Shown here: piece after piece, positions 6,233 through 44,768 of the stretch
Layout of the letters: each line of letters starts with the position of its first letter
How positions within the stretch are numbered: the first letter of the stretch is position 1
Source: a virus
DNA length: 45,561 bases
IMG/VR virus record: IMGVR_UViG_3300020123_000076
Span: 1 to 45,561 of that record
Direction: 5' to 3' (one strand)
Translations under genes and position numbers: made by a program
The notes under the pieces: model-generated
Database searches by the model: none
Told to the model about the DNA's origin: nothing
The model's input: only the letters and a program-made list of their open reading frames with translations

Positions 6233-6576
6233 TGGACGGCATCCTGCCCGAAAAAACCACCCCCGAAGCGCTGGCCGAGCATCTCGGCTGGTCGGAAAGA
6301 CGTGTGCGCTGCCTTGCAAGGCGGCTTGGCGCCTGCCGGATTTTGGGCAATCGTATGGTTCTGCTCAGGGAAGACGTGCAAACCATTCTGGAGGCTGCCA
6401 AATGCCCCTCAAGCTCTACCAGCGCGGCAAGGTCTGGCACTACCGCGGCACGGTTGCCGGAAGGCGGCTTCGAGGATCTTGTAAAACTGCGGACAAAGCC
6501 ATTGCGGCGCGTCAGATTGCCGAGATCGAGGCGCGTCAGTGGCGAGGTAATTTCGATGGACCGGCGGCGGTCCTGA
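6232..6576 (+). CDS. xis: excisionase-like helix-turn-helix protein
   Basis: A 114-residue frame starting MDGILPEKTT. Residues about 8-55 form a MerR/excisionase-type helix-turn-helix (TPEALAEHLGWSERRVRC, then ILGNRMVLLREDVQTILEA), the usual form of small recombination directionality factors. It lies immediately upstream of the integrase and overlaps it by 175 bp in another frame; that overlapping C-terminal half (from about residue 57) is low-complexity and basic. Known role of the family: bending attachment-site DNA and steering integrase toward excision. The start was chosen for its one-base overlap with the preceding stop. Confidence 0.7.
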   Translation: MDGILPEKTTPEALAEHLGWSERRVRCLARRLGACRILGNRMVLLREDVQTILEAAKCPSSSTSAARSGTTAARLPEGGFEDLVKLRTKPLRRVRLPRSRRVSGEVISMDRRRS

Positions 6577-7403
6577 CATTCACGCAGGCGGCTATTTTGT
6601 ACCGCAAGGCCGGCAAGTCGCCCCGCTATCTCGCGCCGGTCGAGGACTATCTAAAAGACATGCTCGTCAAGGACATCAACGCGGGCACGATCAAGCAAAT
6701 GGCGATCGAACTGTTCCCGAATTGCAGCGGGGCCAGCCGCAACCGGCTGGCGATAGTCCCGGCGCAAGCCATCATCAATCACGCCGCCGAATTGCAATTG
6801 TGCCCGCCGATCCGGGTCAAGCGATTTGACGAGGAAACCAAAGAGAAAATTCCGGCCACGCTGGAATGGGTCCGCGCCTTCATGGCGGCGTCGTCCCCGA
6901 ACCTCGGGGCGTTCGCGATGTTCATGTATTTTACGGGAGCCAGGCCGAGCGAAGCAATCGCCGTTCAATTGGGTGACATCGATCTAAAGGCCAAAACGGC
7001 GCTGATCCGGGAGACAAAAGGCGGCACTGAGCGAACGGCCCATCTGCCGGATCCGCTCATCGTGGCGCTTGCCAATGTGCCGAAGGTGCGCGGGCGCGGC
7101 GTGTTCGTCTATCGGGCCTATGGAGACTTTCAGAACGCCTGGGATGCGGCGATCGAGCGAGCGGGCATCAAGCGCCTCACGCCGCATTGTATGCGCCACG
7201 GGTTCGCTACGGGCCTCCTGCGGCGTGGTCTGGACGTGCTGACCGTCGCACATCTCGGCGGATGGAAAGACGCCGGCCAAGTGCTGCGAACCTACGGACA
7301 CGCGAACAAAAACCGCAAGCTGACCGATCTGCTTATTGACGCGCCAGAGACACAGCCAGCAACCAAGAATGCAAGAAAGCCATATAAAACGGGCACAACT
7401 TGA
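6402..7403 (+). CDS. int: tyrosine-family site-specific integrase
   Basis: A 333-residue tyrosine recombinase that would join phage attP to a host attB. The N-terminus (MPLKLYQRGKVWHYRG) is an arm-binding-like module, followed by a core-binding domain (about 55-140) and the catalytic domain. Visible catalytic residues are Arg181 in TGARPSE, Lys about 206 in RETKGG, His262 and Arg265 in HCMRHGFAT, Trp288 in HLGGWKD and nucleophile Tyr298 in RTYGHA, so all key positions are present. It overlaps the excisionase gene. It is the last gene of the plus-strand early operon, with the likely attP region just downstream. Confidence 0.9.
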   Translation: MPLKLYQRGKVWHYRGTVAGRRLRGSCKTADKAIAARQIAEIEARQWRGNFDGPAAVLTFTQAAILYRKAGKSPRYLAPVEDYLKDMLVKDINAGTIKQMAIELFPNCSGASRNRLAIVPAQAIINHAAELQLCPPIRVKRFDEETKEKIPATLEWVRAFMAASSPNLGAFAMFMYFTGARPSEAIAVQLGDIDLKAKTALIRETKGGTERTAHLPDPLIVALANVPKVRGRGVFVYRAYGDFQNAWDAAIERAGIKRLTPHCMRHGFATGLLRRGLDVLTVAHLGGWKDAGQVLRTYGHANKNRKLTDLLIDAPETQPATKNARKPYKTGTT

Positions 7404-33003: not shown

Positions 33004-34167
33004 TCAATTGTCGGCAACGGCCGCAAAAAATCCTGTATAAACCCCCCAATCTTTAAAATTGCCGGTAGCGTTGAGCTTGGCGATCTTGCCGACGCCGTAG
33101 GCCATCTTGATGCCCGCGCCGCGGAGGAACTGATAATCGTCCTCCTTCAGGAAGGTCGGCGTCGGCATCTTGCCCCAGCACCAGGCGACCGCGCCCTGCC
33201 CGCAGAGATGGGCGGGAGCGATCTGGATGCCGGCAGCGCCCGCGGTCTGATAAAACACCGGCAGACGCAGCGAGAGCTCCGGCACTTCGCGGATGATCAC
33301 GCCGTTGTACAACAGATCGCCGTCGACGAAGATCGGGTTCTTCAAATAGCCCTGATTTTCCCTTGCTCGCGAGTTCTGGTTCGCGGTCTTGATGTCGGCG
33401 TCGTTTTGCGCGTCGCGGAACTGCTCCTGGCCGACGAACAGCACGAACCACTCGGTGCCGTTTTCCTTCAGCTTGAAGGGCCGGATGCGCGGGTTGGCTT
33501 TCTTGGCCGACCGCTTCATGCGGTTGACCAAGGCGCCCGACAGCGTCATGCCGGCGGTGATGTTGGCCATCGATCCGGCGAAGTTGCCGGCGATCAGGTT
33601 GGCGGTATTGCCACTTCCGATCAGGAGACGATCGGCATTGTCCGTGATCCAGGTGTTGCGCTGGGCGGCGGTTGCGAGATCGAACAGCACGCCGTTGACG
33701 CGCTGGCCGTTGGCGGAGCCAAGACCAGCAGGAGCTGCCTGTGACGGGACTGCGTAGAAGCCGTCGACGATCTCGTCGCGCTGCTTCTCCTGTCCCCAAT
33801 CGACCAGTGCGGGTTTGACTTCGCCCCACAGGTCGACCGAAGACTTTTGCTCTTCGGCGTTGTTGATGGTGACGGCGTTGCGGGCCCAGTCGATCCAGAA
33901 CCGCGTGCCCTGGTTGTCGAGCTGTTCCTCGTTGCCGCGCAGCGTGCCGGAGGCAACGCCTTGCGAATTGAGACGAGCACGCAACGGGATGTTGATCTGC
34001 TCGCCGCCGTTTTTGCCGCCCTTGTCGAGATCGGTGATCACCCGGATGATCGAGTTGATCGCGGTTCCCATGTAGGGCGAGAACAGGTTTTCGCGGACGT
34101 ATTCGCGATAGACCTCTTTTCGAAAGAAGATGAGTTTGTTGTTTGCAGCAGTAGTCGTCAGCGCCAT
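33004..34167 (-). CDS. major capsid protein
   Basis: A 387-residue protein (MALTTTAANN, KLIFFRKEVYREYVRENLFS) matching the DUF4043/phage-capsid-family type, with RVITDLDKGGKNGGEQINIPLRARLN, NNAEEQKSSVDLWGEV and GVYTGFFAAVADN at the C-terminus. The order scaffold-capsid-tail adaptor in the same operon supports the call. No cleavage site for a head protease is obvious. Size is usual. It shares a convergent junction with the homing nuclease. Confidence 0.8.
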   Translation of the reverse strand: MALTTTAANNKLIFFRKEVYREYVRENLFSPYMGTAINSIIRVITDLDKGGKNGGEQINIPLRARLNSQGVASGTLRGNEEQLDNQGTRFWIDWARNAVTINNAEEQKSSVDLWGEVKPALVDWGQEKQRDEIVDGFYAVPSQAAPAGLGSANGQRVNGVLFDLATAAQRNTWITDNADRLLIGSGNTANLIAGNFAGSMANITAGMTLSGALVNRMKRSAKKANPRIRPFKLKENGTEWFVLFVGQEQFRDAQNDADIKTANQNSRARENQGYLKNPIFVDGDLLYNGVIIREVPELSLRLPVFYQTAGAAGIQIAPAHLCGQGAVAWCWGKMPTPTFLKEDDYQFLRGAGIKMAYGVGKIAKLNATGNFKDWGVYTGFFAAVADN

Positions 34168-36484: not shown

Positions 36485-38473
36485 TCAGATCGGCGGCGCG
36501 GCGGGCGGCGTGCCCTGTTGCTGCGCGCCTTGCGGCGGATTGAGGAACGGCGCCATCACCTTGTGCGCCTCGAACAGCGTGTCGCGCACGAATTCGCGGC
36601 CGTCGAGATCGATCGACGCCGCAGCATGTCCGACTTTTGCCCGTTTTTCTTCCGCTGTCGCTGCTGCCTGGTCGGCGGAAGCAAGCAGCTTGCGCGTCTC
36701 GGCCGCGGTCTTGGCGTTCCGTCCGACCAGCGCTTCGAGACCGAGCCGGGCTTGCGTCTGCTGCACCTGCAGCTGCTCCGGCTTCGGCGCCATCATCTTC
36801 AACAGCCGGTCTTTTTCCGAGCGCGGCAGGTTCGGATTCATCTCGATCAAGACCTGCGGCGGGAAGGTGCCGGGCGGATAGCCCTTCAGCATGTCGTAGG
36901 TTTCCTGCATCATCGACATGATGTCGGGACCCTCATCCAGCGCGATATTGACATCGAGCGCGCCGACGGCGTTCACGATCACCGGACGGCCCCACTGATC
37001 GAGATCGACGCCGTTCAACTGGATGAACTGCGCGAGCTTGTCGTTGGTGTTGACCCTGATCCAGCGCTCCGCGGTCCAGTGCCGCTGCACCGTGGTCCAG
37101 ATTTTCCGGTATAGGTTGATCTTGAACATCCGGTGCGCCAGCACGAACGGCCCGAGCTCGGCCATGCCGGGCTCGCGCAATATTTCCAGCGCCCGCCCGG
37201 ACAGATTGCCAAGGCCGCCAGGCCCGGTAATCGCCGCAATGTTGGAATTGGCAAAACCGTCGAGCTCGGCCTTGGCGTCATCGGTGAAGGCGGCAAATGT
37301 CGCGATGTCCGGATGGGTATCGTCGACCTTGAAGTCCTTGCCAGGATTGCGCTCGACATAACCGTCGTGCCGGGCCACTTCGCGCCGCGCGATCTCGACG
37401 TCGTCGACCGCGCCCTTTTCCGCAATCACCCGCCGCGAGTTCGCCAGCGCCAGCGTCTTCGACTTGCCCTGGTTGAGCGCGTCCTGCGGACCCTTGAAGG
37501 TGCGCACGAACGAATAGCGGTCGCCATCCTGGTCGATCGCGGCGCAGAACATCTCAAACGATGACGCGCTGTTGCCGGTCTCGTCGAAGAACGGCGAGAC
37601 GCCCTGGTCCAACAAAACGTTGGCGACATAGAACGCCCAGCACCAGCGCCCCTTGTACTTGTACCAGTGCTCGACCATGCGCAGTCGTCGCGTGGTGGAG
37701 ATGATCCACTTGATTTCGCGGTCGGAGTTGGTGGTTAAGTCGCTGTCGCCCTGGAACAGGCCTTCCATCTCCTCGCGCTTGTCGGGGAAGATTTCAGCCG
37801 CCGCATCGATGTCCATCCACTTGGCGATGCCCTCGTAGCGGCAGTCCTTGAAGTCGAAGCGATAGGATCGCGGATCGTAGAAATACTCGTCTCCAATCAC
37901 CCAGTGCACGCCGCAGTCGGGATCGCCCTTGTCGCCCTTCTTCAAAACCAGCTGCACCCCGCCGATGGCATCGACCGCGGTCTGCAGGATGCACCAGTAG
38001 TTGATCGAGTTCTTGAACTGGCTGCCATCGAGGACGCTGCGGATCGATTGGGTCGCGATCTCGGCGCCCTCCTCGCTCTTCGGGTTTTTTCCCTCCGCCT
38101 TCGGATCGCAGCGCGTCCGCTCGACGCCGCCGACGATGCCGTTGATCTTGCGCCCGACCCGGTTCCAGATTTGCACCGGCTGATGGCGGGCCTGTAGTAC
38201 GCGCAGCTGTTCGGCGGTGAGCTGCGCGCCGTGATAGTAGCGCCGGGAGTCCTTCTGTTCCTCGATCTCCTCGACCTTGCTATCGAGATAGTCGAGATAT
38301 TGCTGGCGCAGCGTGCGCACCGGCAAAAACATCTCGCTGTCTTCGAGGTCGACGTCGCGGTCGCGCTTGTCCTCATCCGGGTTGTTGTGGTCGCGCGCGC
38401 CGATTAGCGGAGCGAGCCGCGCGGCGTCGGCGCGGTCCATCGCGTCGAGAGGTGAGAATTCAGTCAGCGGCAT
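36485..38473 (-). CDS. portal protein
   Basis: ATG 38473 (MPLTEFSPLD) is preferred over 38500 because it follows the tiny upstream gene's stop with GGTGA before it. The 662-residue product matches P22-type portals in size and pattern: DSEMFLPVRTLRQQYLDYLD, HQPVQIWNRVGRKINGIVGG, CILQTAVDAIGGVQLVLKKG, DEYFYDPRSYRFDFKDCRYEGI and a helical C-terminus with a Pro/Gln tail. It forms the dodecameric DNA entry ring. It is followed by a secreted gene and the scaffold, and preceded by three small genes and the ATP-grasp gene. Confidence 0.8.
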   Translation of the reverse strand: MPLTEFSPLDAMDRADAARLAPLIGARDHNNPDEDKRDRDVDLEDSEMFLPVRTLRQQYLDYLDSKVEEIEEQKDSRRYYHGAQLTAEQLRVLQARHQPVQIWNRVGRKINGIVGGVERTRCDPKAEGKNPKSEEGAEIATQSIRSVLDGSQFKNSINYWCILQTAVDAIGGVQLVLKKGDKGDPDCGVHWVIGDEYFYDPRSYRFDFKDCRYEGIAKWMDIDAAAEIFPDKREEMEGLFQGDSDLTTNSDREIKWIISTTRRLRMVEHWYKYKGRWCWAFYVANVLLDQGVSPFFDETGNSASSFEMFCAAIDQDGDRYSFVRTFKGPQDALNQGKSKTLALANSRRVIAEKGAVDDVEIARREVARHDGYVERNPGKDFKVDDTHPDIATFAAFTDDAKAELDGFANSNIAAITGPGGLGNLSGRALEILREPGMAELGPFVLAHRMFKINLYRKIWTTVQRHWTAERWIRVNTNDKLAQFIQLNGVDLDQWGRPVIVNAVGALDVNIALDEGPDIMSMMQETYDMLKGYPPGTFPPQVLIEMNPNLPRSEKDRLLKMMAPKPEQLQVQQTQARLGLEALVGRNAKTAAETRKLLASADQAAATAEEKRAKVGHAAASIDLDGREFVRDTLFEAHKVMAPFLNPPQGAQQQGTPPAAPPI

Positions 38474-38474
38474 T

Positions 38475-38567
38475 TCACCAACACTTATGGATATTGACAA
38501 CGATGATGGTTATGACCGCGGTCGAGATTAACAACCCCAACACGGCGACTATGCAAGGCACGTCCAT
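38475..38567 (-). CDS. 30-aa membrane peptide between small gene and portal
   Basis: ATG 38567 overlaps the preceding stop (TGATG) and the stop lies one base before the portal start. The product (MDVPCIVAVL) is almost entirely one transmembrane helix ending NIHKCW. Short, but perfectly coupled on both sides. Role unknown. Confidence 0.5.
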   Translation of the reverse strand: MDVPCIVAVLGLLISTAVITIIVVNIHKCW

Positions 38568-38827
38568 CAGCGCGCACTCAACTTTGCCATCTGCTTCGGC
38601 GAGATGCGGCCCATTTTTGCCAGTTGCCCGGCTTGCGCTGCGGTCTGCTTCAGCTCTTCGGCGTGGCGCGTCGCCTCTTTCCGCACCAGTTCGAGCAGCT
38701 TCTTGTTCCGGGTGATCTCGCCGGCGCGCAGCAGCGTATGCATGGCGTCGCGGACTTCCCATTCGTCATACTTTTTGGTTTTGGTCTTCGCGTTCGCCGT
38801 TGCTAGCATCGGTGCGTCTTTCGCCAT
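38567..38827 (-). CDS. small basic helical protein (86 aa)
   Basis: Starts MAKDAPMLAT. Rich in Lys, with helices (WEVRDAMHTLLRAGEITR, LLELVRKEATRHAEELKQTA) and a basic C-terminus (KMGRISPKQMAKLSAR). Could bind nucleic acid or help assemble the portal. Close to neighbours on both sides in the late operon. Confidence 0.6.
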   Translation of the reverse strand: MAKDAPMLATANAKTKTKKYDEWEVRDAMHTLLRAGEITRNKKLLELVRKEATRHAEELKQTAAQAGQLAKMGRISPKQMAKLSAR

Positions 38828-38830
38828 GAT

Positions 38831-39112
38831 CTAAAAACTCCCTTGCGCCAGTTGCTGTTGCCGCATTTCGTGCCGGGCTTGCAGCATCCGCCTGGCGAGA
38901 TCGAGGTTCGCCGTCTCGCGCCACACCTTGACCACGGCGGTAAACCCGTGTTCATTGACGAGGTCGCGCCAGCCGCGATCGAGCATGTCGACCGCGATCA
39001 TCATGCTGTCGCGGTCGTAGTCGGGATCCTCGTCCGGCTCTTCCGGAATGTCGGACCAGCGCGGACGGTGATCCTCGAAACGCCGCCGCCGGTTTAACCG
39101 GACCGACGTCAT
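38831..39112 (-). CDS. small late protein (93 aa)
   Basis: Starts MTSVRLNRRR, with an acidic stretch (PEEPDEDPDYDRDSMMIA) followed by two helices (VKVWRETANLDLARRMLQA). Three bases separate it from the following gene and four from the ATP-grasp gene stop. Unknown role, probably in packaging or portal assembly. Confidence 0.6.
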   Translation of the reverse strand: MTSVRLNRRRRFEDHRPRWSDIPEEPDEDPDYDRDSMMIAVDMLDRGWRDLVNEHGFTAVVKVWRETANLDLARRMLQARHEMRQQQLAQGSF

Positions 39113-39116
39113 CGGA

Positions 39117-40460
39117 TCAGACCTTCGCCATCACCTTGTCGAGCTGACGATCGGAAATCTTGCCCTGCTTGTGCAACGCTTCCGCCTGCCGCTGCTCTTT
39201 GGAAAGCTTCTTGTCCGGTCCCAGCACTTCCTCGAGCTGCTCGCGCGCGATGTCGAGCGCGTCGACTGGCTTCGACAGAAGATGCCCTTCGACCATTGCC
39301 GCGATCCGTTTGCATTCCTCGATCGCCTGGTCCGGCGTATCGCCGAGGGCCACGACAGCGCCGATCTCCGCCGAGCCGGTCCATTGCGGGATCACGTAAT
39401 ACTCGCCCTCGATGCAGCAGAAGTTCCGAAGCTTGACGTTCTCTCGGATGTCTTCCGGGAACGAAACATGCATCCAGTTCTGGTCGGCCCATTCGGAAAT
39501 CAGCAAGACCTCCGCGCCCCACTTCGCCTTGAACTCGGGCTCGATGACAAACCCTTCGGCGCCGTACCAGATGGCTTCCGCCATGTTGGCCATCATGACC
39601 TGGTAGAGTTCGTTCGGCGGGGATCCGGCTCTACAGCAGGGATCGATCAGATAGGCCTTGCCGTCGTTGGTGCAGCGGACTTCGGTCGAGATGAAGCCGC
39701 GATAGCCGTAACGCTTCAAGGCGGGCGAAAGTTTTTCGTTGACGGAACGGACCTGCACCGGCAGTTCATTCCAGCGCGTGGTCTTCATCAGATAGGCTTC
39801 GTCCTTGACCTCCACGCCGGTCATCGCGCCCTTGGGGAACTTGCCGTCGATCGTAAAACCGTCGTAACCGGTCTCGACGGCATCGTTGATGCCTTCCTCG
39901 ACCGTGAATTTGATCACCTTCTTGAGCGCGCCGAGATTGTGCTCCAGCTCGTCGAGCCGCGTCTCGACCTTCTCGTAGGTCTTGGCGCCAAAGGTTTCCA
40001 TGTCGCCGCGGGTGCCGGAAATCTTGACCCACTGATCGTCATTGGCCTTGAGATGCTTGCGCAGCGCCTCAAGACCTTTGATCACCTTGTAGGGACCGAT
40101 ATCGATGCCGAGCTTTTTCGATGCCTCCTTCGAGGTCGGCCGGTCGATCTCCAATTCCGCCCCGAGGCGGCATCCCCACACCCGCTTGCCTTGGGCTGCC
40201 AAGAATTCCTGCAGGTCGCCCTCGTAGACGTCGGGGAAAATCCAGATATCGATGTCGTCGAAGAACGACCAGGGCGAAGCGACCCGCTCGACGCCGTCGA
40301 TGCCCTCGCCGATCATGAGCGCGTTGGACTTCGGCATGCCGGACGTCCAGGGCACGTAGTACAGCACGCGGCCGAACGACTTGGCGAGCGTGACCGCCAC
40401 TTCGCAAAATATCCCGTTATCCCAGATCAGACAGGTCTTGGATTTGAGATTGACGGGCAT
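39117..40460 (-). CDS. ATP-grasp ligase-like protein (447 aa)
   Basis: The N-terminal 100 residues form an alpha/beta domain (CLIWDNGIFCEVAVTLAKSF; IDIWIFPDVYEGDLQEFLAA) like the pre-ATP-grasp domain of GARS/biotin-carboxylase-type enzymes. Residues about 108-290 read as ATP-grasp: RPTSKEASKKLGIDIGPYKV, QWVKISGTRGDMETF (Lys about 146 as ATP contact), GYDGFTIDGKF, and FISTEVRCTNDGKAYLIDPC with Glu260/Asp273 and GSPPNELYQVM as metal-binding elements. A charged helix ends the protein. These enzymes join a carboxylate to an amine or thiol through an acyl phosphate. The substrate is unknown. It is encoded between terminase and portal, with an upstream SpeD-like gene. Confidence 0.65.
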   Translation of the reverse strand: MPVNLKSKTCLIWDNGIFCEVAVTLAKSFGRVLYYVPWTSGMPKSNALMIGEGIDGVERVASPWSFFDDIDIWIFPDVYEGDLQEFLAAQGKRVWGCRLGAELEIDRPTSKEASKKLGIDIGPYKVIKGLEALRKHLKANDDQWVKISGTRGDMETFGAKTYEKVETRLDELEHNLGALKKVIKFTVEEGINDAVETGYDGFTIDGKFPKGAMTGVEVKDEAYLMKTTRWNELPVQVRSVNEKLSPALKRYGYRGFISTEVRCTNDGKAYLIDPCCRAGSPPNELYQVMMANMAEAIWYGAEGFVIEPEFKAKWGAEVLLISEWADQNWMHVSFPEDIRENVKLRNFCCIEGEYYVIPQWTGSAEIGAVVALGDTPDQAIEECKRIAAMVEGHLLSKPVDALDIAREQLEEVLGPDKKLSKEQRQAEALHKQGKISDRQLDKVMAKV

Positions 40461-40465
40461 TTGCG

Positions 40466-40819
40466 TCAGGCTGCCCTGACCGATCTGGTTGCGTCGTACA
40501 GCGCTTTCCCCTCATCGGACCGCAGGTCGATGAATTTCAATCCAGTCCAGATCGACGGGATTTTCTCGCCCGTTTTCTTGTAGAGATTGACCGTATGTCC
40601 GACTGGCAATTGTTCTTTGGGAACCGTCGGCTCGAAATACCAGCGGCCGTTTTCGAGAAAGGCGGTCACGTTGTGGCCGCCGCGAAGGATTCCCTTCACC
40701 CATTCGGGGCGCTCGTCCGCGGCAAACTTGTCTGAATTCCAGATGGTTTCGTGTGACAATTCGACCTCCAATTGACTGCGCAGCGCCATCGCGCCGAAGT
40801 GGAACGCTAGCCGGGTCAT
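40466..40819 (-). CDS. small protein between SpeD-like and ATP-grasp genes (117 aa)
   Basis: ATG 40819 (MTRLAFHFGA) overlaps the SpeD-like stop by ATGA. A beta-type domain is visible (GHNVTAFLENGRWYFEPTVP, VGHTVNLYKKTGEKIPSI) with a long charged C-terminal helix. Five bases separate it from the ATP-grasp gene. It may be a partner or substrate of that enzyme, a guess based on operon order. No family recognised. Confidence 0.55.
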   Translation of the reverse strand: MTRLAFHFGAMALRSQLEVELSHETIWNSDKFAADERPEWVKGILRGGHNVTAFLENGRWYFEPTVPKEQLPVGHTVNLYKKTGEKIPSIWTGLKFIDLRSDEGKALYDATRSVRAA

Positions 40820-41193
40820 TTCAGATTGAGTTCGGCATAGAAGCGCTTGCCGCTGCCGAGCGATACTTTCAGCCCGAAGGCGGCGGCCGCGGCATCGATG
40901 TCGGCTGAAAAATAATCCCGGCACGAGCAGACGAACAGGTAGGCGCCCTCGTGATCGGACCAGGTATCGAGCGCGAGAAAGGATTCGGTGATCGGCAGCA
41001 CGATCGTCTGTCCCGTGCCGCCCTTGCCGTTGATCGGATAGCTCCACACCGCAGGCTCCGCGACCGCCGTCATGCCGATCGCTTTCGCGACCTCGTGCAG
41101 GAACGCGATCCAGTTCTGATCGGTGAGCTTGCCAACCAGCACCACGCCGAACGAGTGCATCCGGCTTCCAAGCACAGGCTCGACAAAGCCCAT
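40816..41193 (-). CDS. SpeD (S-adenosylmethionine decarboxylase)-like protein, possibly degenerate
   Basis: A 125-residue protein close to bacterial SpeD size. The core IVLPITESFLALDTWSDHEG aligns by eye with the SpeD core VVISESHLTIHTWPE. The Glu70-Ser71 pair corresponds to the self-cleavage site that makes the pyruvoyl group; the following His is Phe here. FVCSCRDYF follows in place of the TCG that carries the catalytic Cys. SpeD proteins decarboxylate S-adenosylmethionine for spermidine synthesis; divergent phage members may use other substrates. The missing His argues for altered or lost activity. It is coupled to the next gene and lies two genes from an ATP-grasp ligase. Confidence 0.55.
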   Translation of the reverse strand: MGFVEPVLGSRMHSFGVVLVGKLTDQNWIAFLHEVAKAIGMTAVAEPAVWSYPINGKGGTGQTIVLPITESFLALDTWSDHEGAYLFVCSCRDYFSADIDAAAAAFGLKVSLGSGKRFYAELNLK

Positions 41194-41194
41194 C

Positions 41195-41386
41195 TCAGTA
41201 GTTGCCCAGATGCCGCTTGGCGGCCTTTTCCGAGATCATGCCGCGCTTGATCGCGCGCTTTGCGGTCTTGCGCTTGGCCTTTGGCGGCTTCATCGGCGCT
41301 GTGTTTTGCACGCCCGCCGGCTCGCGCTCCGGTTTGCCCTTATAGGCGAGCGCCTTGTTGTTCGGTGCAGCCGTTGTGTCAGCCAT
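41195..41386 (-). CDS. small highly basic protein (63 aa)
   Basis: ATG 41386 (MADTTAAPNN) overlaps the acidic mini-protein gene. About one third of the residues are Lys/Arg (PPKAKRKTAKRAIKRGMISE, KAAKRHLGNY), so it probably binds DNA or RNA. Together with the adjacent acidic peptide it forms an oppositely charged pair. Could condense DNA or serve as a packaging or internal head protein. Confidence 0.6.
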   Translation of the reverse strand: MADTTAAPNNKALAYKGKPEREPAGVQNTAPMKPPKAKRKTAKRAIKRGMISEKAAKRHLGNY

Positions 41387-41504
41387 CTTGTTCTTCCTCA
41401 TGCGGATCGGCGGTTTCATCGTCGCAGACGTCGCGCCACTCGTCGGGATCGTCGTACTCGAAGCCGTCGGCGAGCGGGAGCTCGCCGTTTTCGTCTTCGG
41501 GCAT
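41379..41504 (-). CDS. 41-aa acidic peptide
   Basis: Begins at ATG 41504, overlapping the previous TGA by one base (TGATG), and overlaps the following basic-protein gene by eight bases. The product (MPEDENGELP, then GFEYDDPDEWRDVCDDETAD) has a net charge of about -18. It may interact with the basic protein encoded just after it or mimic DNA. Confidence 0.5.
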   Translation of the reverse strand: MPEDENGELPLADGFEYDDPDEWRDVCDDETADPHEEEQDG

Positions 41505-41723: not shown

Positions 41724-43361
41724 TCAGAGCGTTGCGGTTGATTCCGAGTAGCGGTCGCCGCCGGCTTCGCGGAAGGCATCGCGTTTCTCGGCTGTGTCCT
41801 TTGGCAGTGTCTTGATCCACGGCCGCGACATGCAGGCGTAGCGCCAGTCATCAGCCGCGTGGTCTTCCGAGTGCGTGTCCAGATCCTCGGCGCGGTGCGG
41901 ATCGTGCTGCAGCACCGGGATGGTGCGGATCGAATCCAGGCACGTCGAAAAGCAGTAGATCATCGGGCGCCCCGCGGCCCAGTCGACCGAGCCATCAGCC
42001 TGCTTGCGGGCGGTGCCGATCAAGCGCCCCCGCATCTGGTCCCAGCCGCCCATCGGGCCGCCGCGGTCGTTGCCGTCAGTCTTCGAGACGCGGGAGTTGT
42101 CGGCCTCGTGGAACGTGATCAGCTTCTTTTTCAACAACTCGTCGTTGATGCGCTCGCCGATCGACGGCCCGCCGTCTTCCTTAAAGGCATTGGGATCGAG
42201 CACGCCGAACGACAGTTTCGGGTCACGCTCTTCAGCCTTAGCGATCCGCATGCCGAGCGCGGTTGCCGTCAGCTTGCCGCCGACTTTTCCGTAGTCCTCG
42301 CGGTATCGAACAAGCGCACCGCGTGGTAAAATACGTTGCTTTCCGGATACTCCTTGAAGCTGAAAAGATAGCCTTCCGGATGATCCCGTACGTTGACGAT
42401 CTTCCCATCGATCCATGCCTGTTGCATGCGCGGCGACATCTTGAGCCAAACCGCCCAGCGCAAAGTCATCGCTGACGACGGCCCACCAGCCAATGCTGTA
42501 CGGCGAGGCCGAACCCCAGTCGCCAGAGCGGAAGCGCAGCCAATGAGTTGGAAGAGTGAACGGCGCGAGTACATGCTGCTCGTTGCTCCATTCGGAAAAG
42601 AACGCGCCTTCGACCACGTCCCAGTCGCCGTGACGCATGGCGGCAACAAGCGTCGCCGAGCCGAGGCCGAAAAGCTTGTCTTCGTAATCCGGATCGTCCT
42701 GCAGAGCGGTCGGATTATCTTCGAGCCTGGCCGGGATAAACAGCCGCAACATGCCGCCTTCGGATCGTGGCATGCGGCGAATTTCCAACGGCACGCAGCC
42801 GTTGATGAAAGTTCGCTTGACCCAGAGATGACCGATATTTCCGGGATTGGCGCCGCACAGGATGCGCGGGAACTTGCCGATGTATTCCGGCGGCAGCTTG
42901 ATACCGATTAACCGAACACGGCCGCGCAGGAAGCGGTACATCTTCTCGGTGAAGTGCGTCAGCTCGTCGATCAGAAGGACGTGGATTTCCGCGCCCTGGT
43001 ACTTGTAGACGTCGTTTTCGCTCTTGCAGTGGCACAGGTAGATGACACTGCCGTTCCAGAAGCGGATTTCATCGCCGACGATCCGGCACCAGCCAGTAAA
43101 ACTCCAGACCGCGAGCAGCGCGCGGAAGCCCTTCGGCCCTTCGAGATGGTTCTTGTAGAGGTCTTCGCGGACGCGGCGGAACAGGTAGACCTGCAGGCCC
43201 GGAATGTTGGAGCACCACACGATCGCGGCGATCCGCATCAGATGCGACTTGCCCGGACCGGCCGCCCCGCCGAACAGGACTTCCGTGGCCTCAGTTAGGA
43301 ACGCGATCCACTGTTTCGGATGCAGATGGATCCGCAGCGCATCCGGGCGGGCTTCATGCAC
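41724..43361 (-). CDS. terL: terminase large subunit
   Basis: A 545-residue DNA-packaging motor. Walker A GAAGPGKS (about 32-39), Walker B VLLIDE (about 128-133), the coupling motif GANPGN (about 170-175) and RNase H-like nuclease acidic residues (GDWG with Asp281, later VLDPNAF) are visible. The protein starts MHEARPDALR, overlapping the small subunit by eight bases. Residues about 301-344 are odd: GC at third positions drops to about one third in this frame, while another frame looks more coding there (see findings). The C-terminal nuclease region (RYREDYGK and beyond) is back in good register. Confidence 0.85.
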   Translation of the reverse strand: MHEARPDALRIHLHPKQWIAFLTEATEVLFGGAAGPGKSHLMRIAAIVWCSNIPGLQVYLFRRVREDLYKNHLEGPKGFRALLAVWSFTGWCRIVGDEIRFWNGSVIYLCHCKSENDVYKYQGAEIHVLLIDELTHFTEKMYRFLRGRVRLIGIKLPPEYIGKFPRILCGANPGNIGHLWVKRTFINGCVPLEIRRMPRSEGGMLRLFIPARLEDNPTALQDDPDYEDKLFGLGSATLVAAMRHGDWDVVEGAFFSEWSNEQHVLAPFTLPTHWLRFRSGDWGSASPYSIGWWAVVSDDFALGGLAQDVAAHATGMDRWEDRQRTGSSGRLSFQLQGVSGKQRILPRGALVRYREDYGKVGGKLTATALGMRIAKAEERDPKLSFGVLDPNAFKEDGGPSIGERINDELLKKKLITFHEADNSRVSKTDGNDRGGPMGGWDQMRGRLIGTARKQADGSVDWAAGRPMIYCFSTCLDSIRTIPVLQHDPHRAEDLDTHSEDHAADDWRYACMSRPWIKTLPKDTAEKRDAFREAGGDRYSESTATL

Positions 43362-44084: not shown

Positions 44085-44768
44085 CTAAGTGAGCTTTTCG
44101 ATAGAACTGAGCGGAAGCTCGGCGGGGGTTGAACGTCCGAAGATGTTGATAGCTATGGTCGCGCACATTGATTCGTCAAGTTCCGAAAGTACGCCTTCGT
44201 TGATCTGCTGTTGAAGCTTGGCGGGCAGTTCTTCGACTACGCCGTTGAAACCGCGGAACGGTCCGGCTTTGATCAATACGTTTTCGCCGATGGCAAACAG
44301 TTGCTTCAGCGTTGTGGTCGCTGGGATCACGCCATCGCTTTCCAGCGACTTCAGGTGGTTGATCCATGCATTATCGGCCACGACCGGCTTGCCCGATGTA
44401 CAATGCAGGCCATACACGCCCGTAAAATCAAACAGCTTGTGGCAGCGGGAGTCCTCCATATCGAAGCGGATGAACGGATAACTTGGAAAGATCGCCGTGA
44501 GTTGCGGGCGGCTGATCATAGCGCCCGCGCCGCGCTGGGATGGCGTCAATTGTCGCTTCGGCACCGCCCGCAGCACCAGCGTTTTCGGATAGTAGACCTC
44601 GTAGCCGAAGGGCCTCAGGAAATCCTTGATCCGCTCCTCTGCGCCCGACCTTGCCTGAAGCAGGTACCAAGCGTTGCCCTTACGGGTCCCGACTTGCGGT
44701 TGGCGCGGCCACTGGCACGCCGCGCCGTCGATTACCTCGATCTGTTCGTTTTTCGCCGCCATCAGCAT
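44085..44768 (-). CDS. phage NusG/RfaH-like antitermination factor
   Basis: The start is ATG 44768 (MLMAAKNEQI) or 44762, after GGAGAGG. Residues about 33-110 form a NusG N-terminal domain: WYLLQARSGAEERIKDFLRP, EVYYPKTLVLRAVPK and LTAIFPSYPFIRFD. Residues about 158-185 form a KOW-type segment (FAIGENVLIKAGPFRGFNGVV). This is the organisation of the RfaH/UpxY/LoaP subfamily, which binds RNA polymerase and makes it read through terminators. A strong terminator and then the late operon follow immediately, so it probably lets transcription enter the late genes. The recruitment sequence (ops or put site) was not found. Confidence 0.8.
   Translation of the reverse strand: MLMAAKNEQIEVIDGAACQWPRQPQVGTRKGNAWYLLQARSGAEERIKDFLRPFGYEVYYPKTLVLRAVPKRQLTPSQRGAGAMISRPQLTAIFPSYPFIRFDMEDSRCHKLFDFTGVYGLHCTSGKPVVADNAWINHLKSLESDGVIPATTTLKQLFAIGENVLIKAGPFRGFNGVVEELPAKLQQQINEGVLSELDESMCATIAINIFGRSTPAELPLSSIEKLT

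Follow-up and report, generated by a model that had tools for sequence, protein, structure and literature searches.

What an ATP-grasp ligase might do in the middle of the packaging and head genes of a bacteriophage is the question raised by the DNA described here. The window, by which is meant the whole stretch of 45,561 nucleotides that was analyzed, is a 45.6-kb record that is classed as a virus and comes from a phage of a soil bacterium. Since the record contains genes for a tyrosine-type integrase (6402-7403) and a major head protein (33004-34167; phrog_334), its source is probably a temperate tailed phage. The initial annotation had reported a 447-residue protein encoded between terminase and portal, an arrangement that is confirmed. 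The open reading frame (ORF) at 39117-40460 on the minus strand begins with ATG, encodes 447 amino acids and lies between the genes for the large terminase subunit (TerL; 41724..43361, minus strand; phrog_979, E 3.7e-27) and a P22-type portal protein (36485..38500, minus strand; PF16510, E 9.8e-73; phrog_156, E 1.9e-81).

Several small genes on the minus strand accompany the ligase gene. A 74-aa basic protein whose position is conserved is encoded (41195..41419) just upstream of the gene for a 125-aa protein of the SpeD (pyruvoyl decarboxylase-like) family (40816..41193), and a 117-aa protein of unassigned function (40466..40819) is encoded between the SpeD-like gene, the stop codon of which it overlaps, and the ligase gene. 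Directly after the ligase gene come genes for a 93-aa protein of unassigned function (38831..39112), recognized as an ORF with tblastn matches in seven loci (L001, L002, L011, L012, L013, L023 and L034), and an 86-aa protein (38567..38827) that is conserved in many loci and gave no tblastn match among named phages. The packaging genes are immediately preceded, in the same orientation, by a gene for a transcription-antiterminator-like protein (44085-44768; phrog_6386, E 1.8e-17), which may control the late operon that bears the ligase gene.

The ligase ORF is a real gene under purifying selection as judged by comparison with its relatives. Its coding status is clear because codon position 3 holds most of the differences from relatives (49/29/145 at positions 1/2/3 in the comparison with L001) and its GC3 is 0.82. 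An ORF of 470 aa on the plus strand (39171-40583), antisense to the ligase gene, was considered and rejected as a by-product of high GC content because the same frame is interrupted by stop codons in most of the relatives tested.

A structural model of the ligase predicted with AlphaFold2 from a 62-member alignment has a pLDDT of 94.4 and the full-length architecture of a PurD/GARS-like ATP-grasp enzyme, which bears out the fold proposed from the sequence. GAR synthetases are the top Foldseek matches for the model (2yw2, E 8e-20), and VIA-align superimposes it on 2yw2 with a Z score of 29.9 and an rmsd of 3.2 over 376 residues, with PurK and PurT next at Z scores near 23. Biotin carboxylase is also among the matches, and glutathionylspermidine synthetase (GspS) is absent among the Foldseek and VIA-align matches listed (PurD, PurK, PurT and biotin carboxylases). 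A profile search with the ligase family matches the GAR synthetase 1vkz (E 3.3e-5), and the purD model TIGR00877 matches 28 of the 62 family members (best E 9.1e-8). The window ligase compared with TIGR00877 returned 0 families at E 0.5 and is below the 288-bit cut-off, and single-sequence scans of the protein gave nothing in Pfam and nothing significant in PHROGs.

The active-site residues named in the initial annotation are located as described, with K146 in QWVKIS, E260, D273, and GSPPNELY at residues 279-286. By analogy with other ATP-grasp enzymes, E260 and D273 would be the metal ligands and K146 the ATP-binding lysine. Retention of these residues in homologues had been proposed as a test of the assignment, and all three are invariant in 85 homologues, as are R151, E155, D200, E217, K219, R277, P281 and P282. 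Given this invariance of the catalytic residues, the reading of the ligase as a pseudoenzyme was rejected. The predicted fold together with the putative ATP-binding lysine and acidic metal ligands places it in the ATP-grasp superfamily, and an ATP-dependent amide-forming ligase activity is supported by both the model and the conserved residues. The likely reaction class is that of a carboxylate-amine ligase, given that the nearest folds are those of PurD, followed by PurK and PurT.

Successive scans of IMG/VR for relatives of the ligase recovered 23 close relatives, then 157, and then 218 with broader alignments, and a scan of GTDB species genomes with a peptide pattern found three contigs, namely a prophage of Bradyrhizobium sp. 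YR681 (L097), a Rhizobiales MAG (L098) and an Acidobacteriaceae MAG (L099). The scans of both databases were seeded with short conserved peptides, so the counts are lower bounds and the number of IMG/VR relatives is at least 218. Within the genus Bradyrhizobium the ligase occurs in 2 of 195 genomes. No tblastn match to the ligase was found among 50,697 named phage records, and the GTDB peptide-pattern scan, with its three contigs in all, yielded no cellular ancestor. The ligase belongs to a new, previously unnamed family that is almost exclusively viral.

The most useful hint in the initial annotation was the SpeD-like gene upstream of the ligase. Among 71 loci with at least 1.3 kb of upstream sequence, 48 have a SpeD-family gene in the same orientation no more than about 2 kb upstream of the ligase gene, and in most cases it abuts or overlaps the ligase start. 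Some of these contigs are near-duplicates (e.g., L051-L053 and L086/L087), so that independent loci are fewer than the counts indicate. A second set of 23 further loci, not all of which have enough upstream sequence, includes five with a SpeD-family gene. Conservation of both small neighbors on this side of the ligase had been raised as a check, and it holds for the SpeD-like gene and not for the 117-aa gene, which tblastn recognized in few loci (L006, L010, L012 and L031, the last being a wider copy of L012). The other 23 of the 71 loci have no SpeD anywhere in the whole record, many of these records being fragments, which indicates that the ligase can do without SpeD in at least some phages; no common replacement partner was seen in the loci that lack it.

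The SpeD-family proteins that occupy this position are of two types. Type A, found in the window, carries the sequence ESFLALDTW, and type B carries ESGIQIHT and matches PF02675 with E values down to 5.7e-16; the two types are 16-20% identical when identity is calculated by the row of the window protein. When the types are mapped on the ligase tree, type A extends into deep clades, type B is confined to the interior of a single branch, and the type labels cluster more strongly than in shuffles. The use of two remote representatives of a single enzyme family in one slot is good evidence that the ligase and the SpeD-like protein are functionally coupled.

In 16 loci, some of which are duplicates and one of which (L008) belongs to the clade of the window, the SpeD-like gene or the ligase gene adjoins a gene for a small protein of a family that has an H-E-x-x-E core and in which D..H and APYR..H residues are conserved. 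Examples are found at L162:3537-3998, L169:3630-4001, L142:1438-1836, L073:6284-6646, L075:929-1288 and L008:5514-5990, among others. The family has no clear match in Pfam or PHROGs. Its conserved residues have the look of a metal-binding site, and it is possible that these proteins are a third member of the module.

The SpeD-like protein of the window matches PF02675 (E 1e-6), and its model (pLDDT 94.8) has the SpeD fold, aligning with Thermotoga maritima SpeD (1vr7) with a Z score of 12.7 and an rmsd of 2.9 over 109 residues. In T. maritima SpeD, S63 becomes the pyruvoyl serine, H68 is the processing histidine and C83 is the catalytic cysteine (PMC10407285). The equivalents of the first and last of these, S71 and C91, have the same spacing and are invariant in all 34 aligned SpeD-like proteins. 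The position of H68 is occupied by Asp in 27 of the 34, Glu in one and His in six, all of the latter being type B. Because the window protein has D76 in place of the processing histidine, it is referred to here as a SpeD-family protein and not as an AdoMet decarboxylase (AdoMetDC). Decarboxylase activity of the window type is uncertain since the processing histidine is replaced by Asp or Glu in 28 of the 34 proteins, the window protein included. The window type gave no tblastn match among named phages. Among characterized phage SpeD homologues, those of 117-122 aa are ornithine decarboxylases, one of which also accepts arginine, and a pelagiphage homologue decarboxylates arginine (PMC9992855).

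The preferred reading, to which about even confidence is given, is that the ligase is an active PurD-like ATP-grasp carboxylate-amine ligase that works with the upstream SpeD-family protein. The SpeD-like protein would cleave itself at S71 to generate the pyruvoyl cofactor and decarboxylate an amino-acid-type substrate (ornithine, arginine, AdoMet or another) to give an amine, a step suggested by the fold, the invariant S71 and C91, and the characterized phage relatives. Based on its fold and invariant residues, the ligase would use Mg-ATP, with E260 and D273 as metal ligands and K146 as the ATP-binding residue, to convert a carboxylate to an acyl phosphate. An amine, most simply the product of the SpeD-like protein or a derivative of it as the conserved gene pair implies, would then attack the acyl phosphate to form an amide. 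A soluble polyamine-type amide is slightly the more likely product when weighed against a modified protein. The amine could also feed host polyamines, as spermidine-synthase-like matches are present in one of two host genomes.

The timing of this reaction is suggested by the surroundings of the ligase gene. In the group that includes the window the gene adjoins genes for the P22-like portal and head proteins, while elsewhere it is near Mu gp45/gp46 genes (L020 and L091), a Phage_capsid_2 gene (L078), terminase genes (L073, recognized by Pfam, and L076, recognized by its sequence) or a tailspike-like gene (L081). These phage types are unrelated, and late structural genes are near the ligase gene in every type looked at; what loci with identifiable neighbors have in common is the late structural region and not the type of phage. 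Given this position, ligation may occur late, during assembly. The usual arrangement, in which the ligase gene directly follows a decarboxylase-like gene that could supply its amine substrate, suggests that an amide or amine conjugate is made by diverse phages late in infection. In some distant loci, very large ORFs encoding 1274-2264 aa directly precede the ligase gene (L093:205-6999, L094:421-6999 and L095:3065-6889); that of L093 matches an RIIA-like profile, and part of that of L095 matches a DarB-like antirestriction profile.

The ligase also shares a short C-terminal motif with its small neighbors. Residues 417-447 of the window ligase (39120..39212, minus strand) form a tail with the motif KxGxISxKQ, and such a tail is present in 35 of the 62 family members, while shorter, distant ligases of about 415-435 aa do not have it. 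The tail looks SHOCT-like (PF09851), but three tails gave no Pfam match even at E 10. The 35 ligase tails were made into a profile, which was searched against 9383 ORFs of the window and the loci at E 0.05 or better. All 48 matches outside recognized ligases lie in the interval from about 1.1 kb ahead of the ligase start to 1.9 kb past it, 41 of them stop no more than 15 residues from the C-terminus, and none comes from reversed ORFs. One of these matches (L023, E 3.8e-17) represents the end of a truncated ligase and not a separate gene. The proteins that share the motif are small and basic and flank the SpeD/ligase pair on both sides in many loci. In the window these are the 86-aa protein, which ends in the motif (LAKMGRISPKQMAKLSAR; profile E 1e-4), and the 74-aa protein, whose C-terminus (IKRGMISEKAAKRH) resembles the motif and was assigned by eye, its orthologues in L029, L031 and L090 reaching the profile with E 0.02-0.04. 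In the P22-portal branch, the shared motif is probably a peptide that docks the ligase together with the small neighboring proteins.

It is possible that the ligase modifies a protein. The C-terminal motif would recruit it to a virion or packaging protein, a carboxylate (or amine) of which would receive an amino acid or amine. This explanation is entertained tentatively. It would account for the constant proximity to late structural genes in unrelated phage types and for the restriction of the motif to neighbors of the ligase, but the nearest folds are those of the small-molecule enzymes PurD, PurK and PurT, and the absence of the motif from the shorter, distant ligases means that docking is not general. 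In addition, the neighboring structural genes differ between phage types, so no common protein target is in view. That the enzyme modifies a virion protein or DNA, both of which the initial annotation had raised, is one of several possibilities. A bolder and rather unlikely version combines the two ideas into a two-enzyme late module of unrelated tailed phages, in which the ligase, docked at the packaging/portal site through the motif, would couple a dedicated amine to a component of the virion or of packaging, or else to a conjugate that is packaged along with the DNA. If true, such a module would be a new kind of virion or packaged-DNA modification.

Alternatively, the SpeD-like protein could be a non-catalytic subunit that regulates or scaffolds the ligase, which alone would act on host metabolites. 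The loss of the processing histidine in the window type and the 23 loci without SpeD fit this idea, for which there is precedent in the SpeD fold, spermine synthase and Trypanosoma brucei AdoMetDC/prozyme entries being among the structure matches of the SpeD-like model. It is nevertheless decidedly unlikely, as S71 and C91 are retained in 34 of 34 proteins and the same slot is occupied in other phages by the type with the canonical histidine, of which there are six aligned members.

A further alternative is that the SpeD-like decarboxylase serves only to feed host polyamines and that the ligase is an unrelated passenger. Phage SpeD homologues have been proposed to change polyamine levels (PMC9992855), but the tight linkage to the ligase recurs in unrelated phages and with two SpeD types. 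Moreover, the host genomes examined lack a SpeD gene of their own that a phage copy could supplement; in both G001 and G002, the hosts of L097 and L098, the phage-borne SpeD-like gene is the sole PF02675 match, which makes boosting of a host SpeD route unlikely there. Polyamine supply alone is accordingly regarded as highly improbable.

Comparison of the ligase with PurD bears on the last alternative. The two proteins are alike in whole-length architecture, with the structural alignment to GAR synthetase described above, and a profile alignment with the PurD of the host matches the metal-site region, LIDPCCRAGSPPNE of the ligase with LFEFNVRFGDPECQ. They differ in that identity is 17-18%, the PurD loop GPNTGGMGAYSP has no counterpart in the ligase family, the PurD signature RFGDPE at the metal site is replaced by RAGSPPNE with its invariant P281 and P282, and E260 aligns with a Gly of PurD. 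Because of these replacements, the alignments identify the ligase as a PurD-like ATP-grasp protein and not a PurD. That the gene encodes a divergent GAR synthetase which raises nucleotide supply is exceedingly improbable. Although PurD is both the closest fold and the closest profile, a purine-metabolism gene was rejected on the missing signatures and low TIGR00877 scores (best family member E 9.1e-8 versus E 2.4e-162 for the host's own PurD), and the neighbor is SpeD-like and no purine gene.

The ligase and its relatives define a widespread, unnamed family of phage enzymes in which the active site is intact and a decarboxylase-type partner is strongly conserved. The pairing with a SpeD-family protein gives a concrete and testable biochemical prediction, and the location among the late structural genes of unrelated phages points to a chemical step during the assembly of virions or at a late stage of infection. 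Some phage SpeD homologues, which so far have been considered solely as a source of polyamines, are in this way connected with a particular enzyme that acts downstream of them.

The initial annotation had held that no system of this kind was described, a statement which is too strong in light of the LUZ24-like phages and certain bacterial operons. A search of the open-access literature found no description of a PurD-like ATP-grasp protein paired with SpeD in a phage late region. LUZ24-like phages have a set of ATP-grasp, amidoligase and GATase genes (PMC3890496), which resembles the present case in that the ATP-grasp protein is phage-encoded and predicted to form amides. The LUZ24-like protein, however, has 291 aa and is encoded in an early module with an amidoligase and a GATase and without SpeD, whereas the window ligase has 447 aa and is encoded in the late region. 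For the amidoligase and GATase of OM43 phages, a role in cell-wall modification or in the production of metabolites has been suggested (PMC10580990), and jumbo phages encode ATP-grasp peptide ligases of the R2K family (PMC7824862). The phage SpeD homologues with ornithine or arginine decarboxylase activity (ODC/ADC) resemble the SpeD-like protein of the window in their small size (117-122 aa compared with 125 aa) and conserved pyruvoyl serine, but they differ in that their description makes no mention of ATP-grasp proteins and the window type has Asp for the processing histidine (PMC9992855). In bacteria, operons that combine an AdoMet decarboxylase with a glutathionylspermidine-synthetase-like ATP-grasp protein are reported in a passage of PMC11237479 that cites Li et al. 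2019. They share with the phage pair a SpeD-family enzyme encoded together with an ATP-grasp ligase, and they differ from it in their cellular and membrane-stress context, in other operon members and probably in the family of the ATP-grasp protein, which is GspS-like in the operons and PurD-like in the phages. Phage ATP-grasp ligases and bacterial AdoMetDC/ATP-grasp operons are already known, and what appears to be new is the PurD-like family and its pairing with SpeD in phages.
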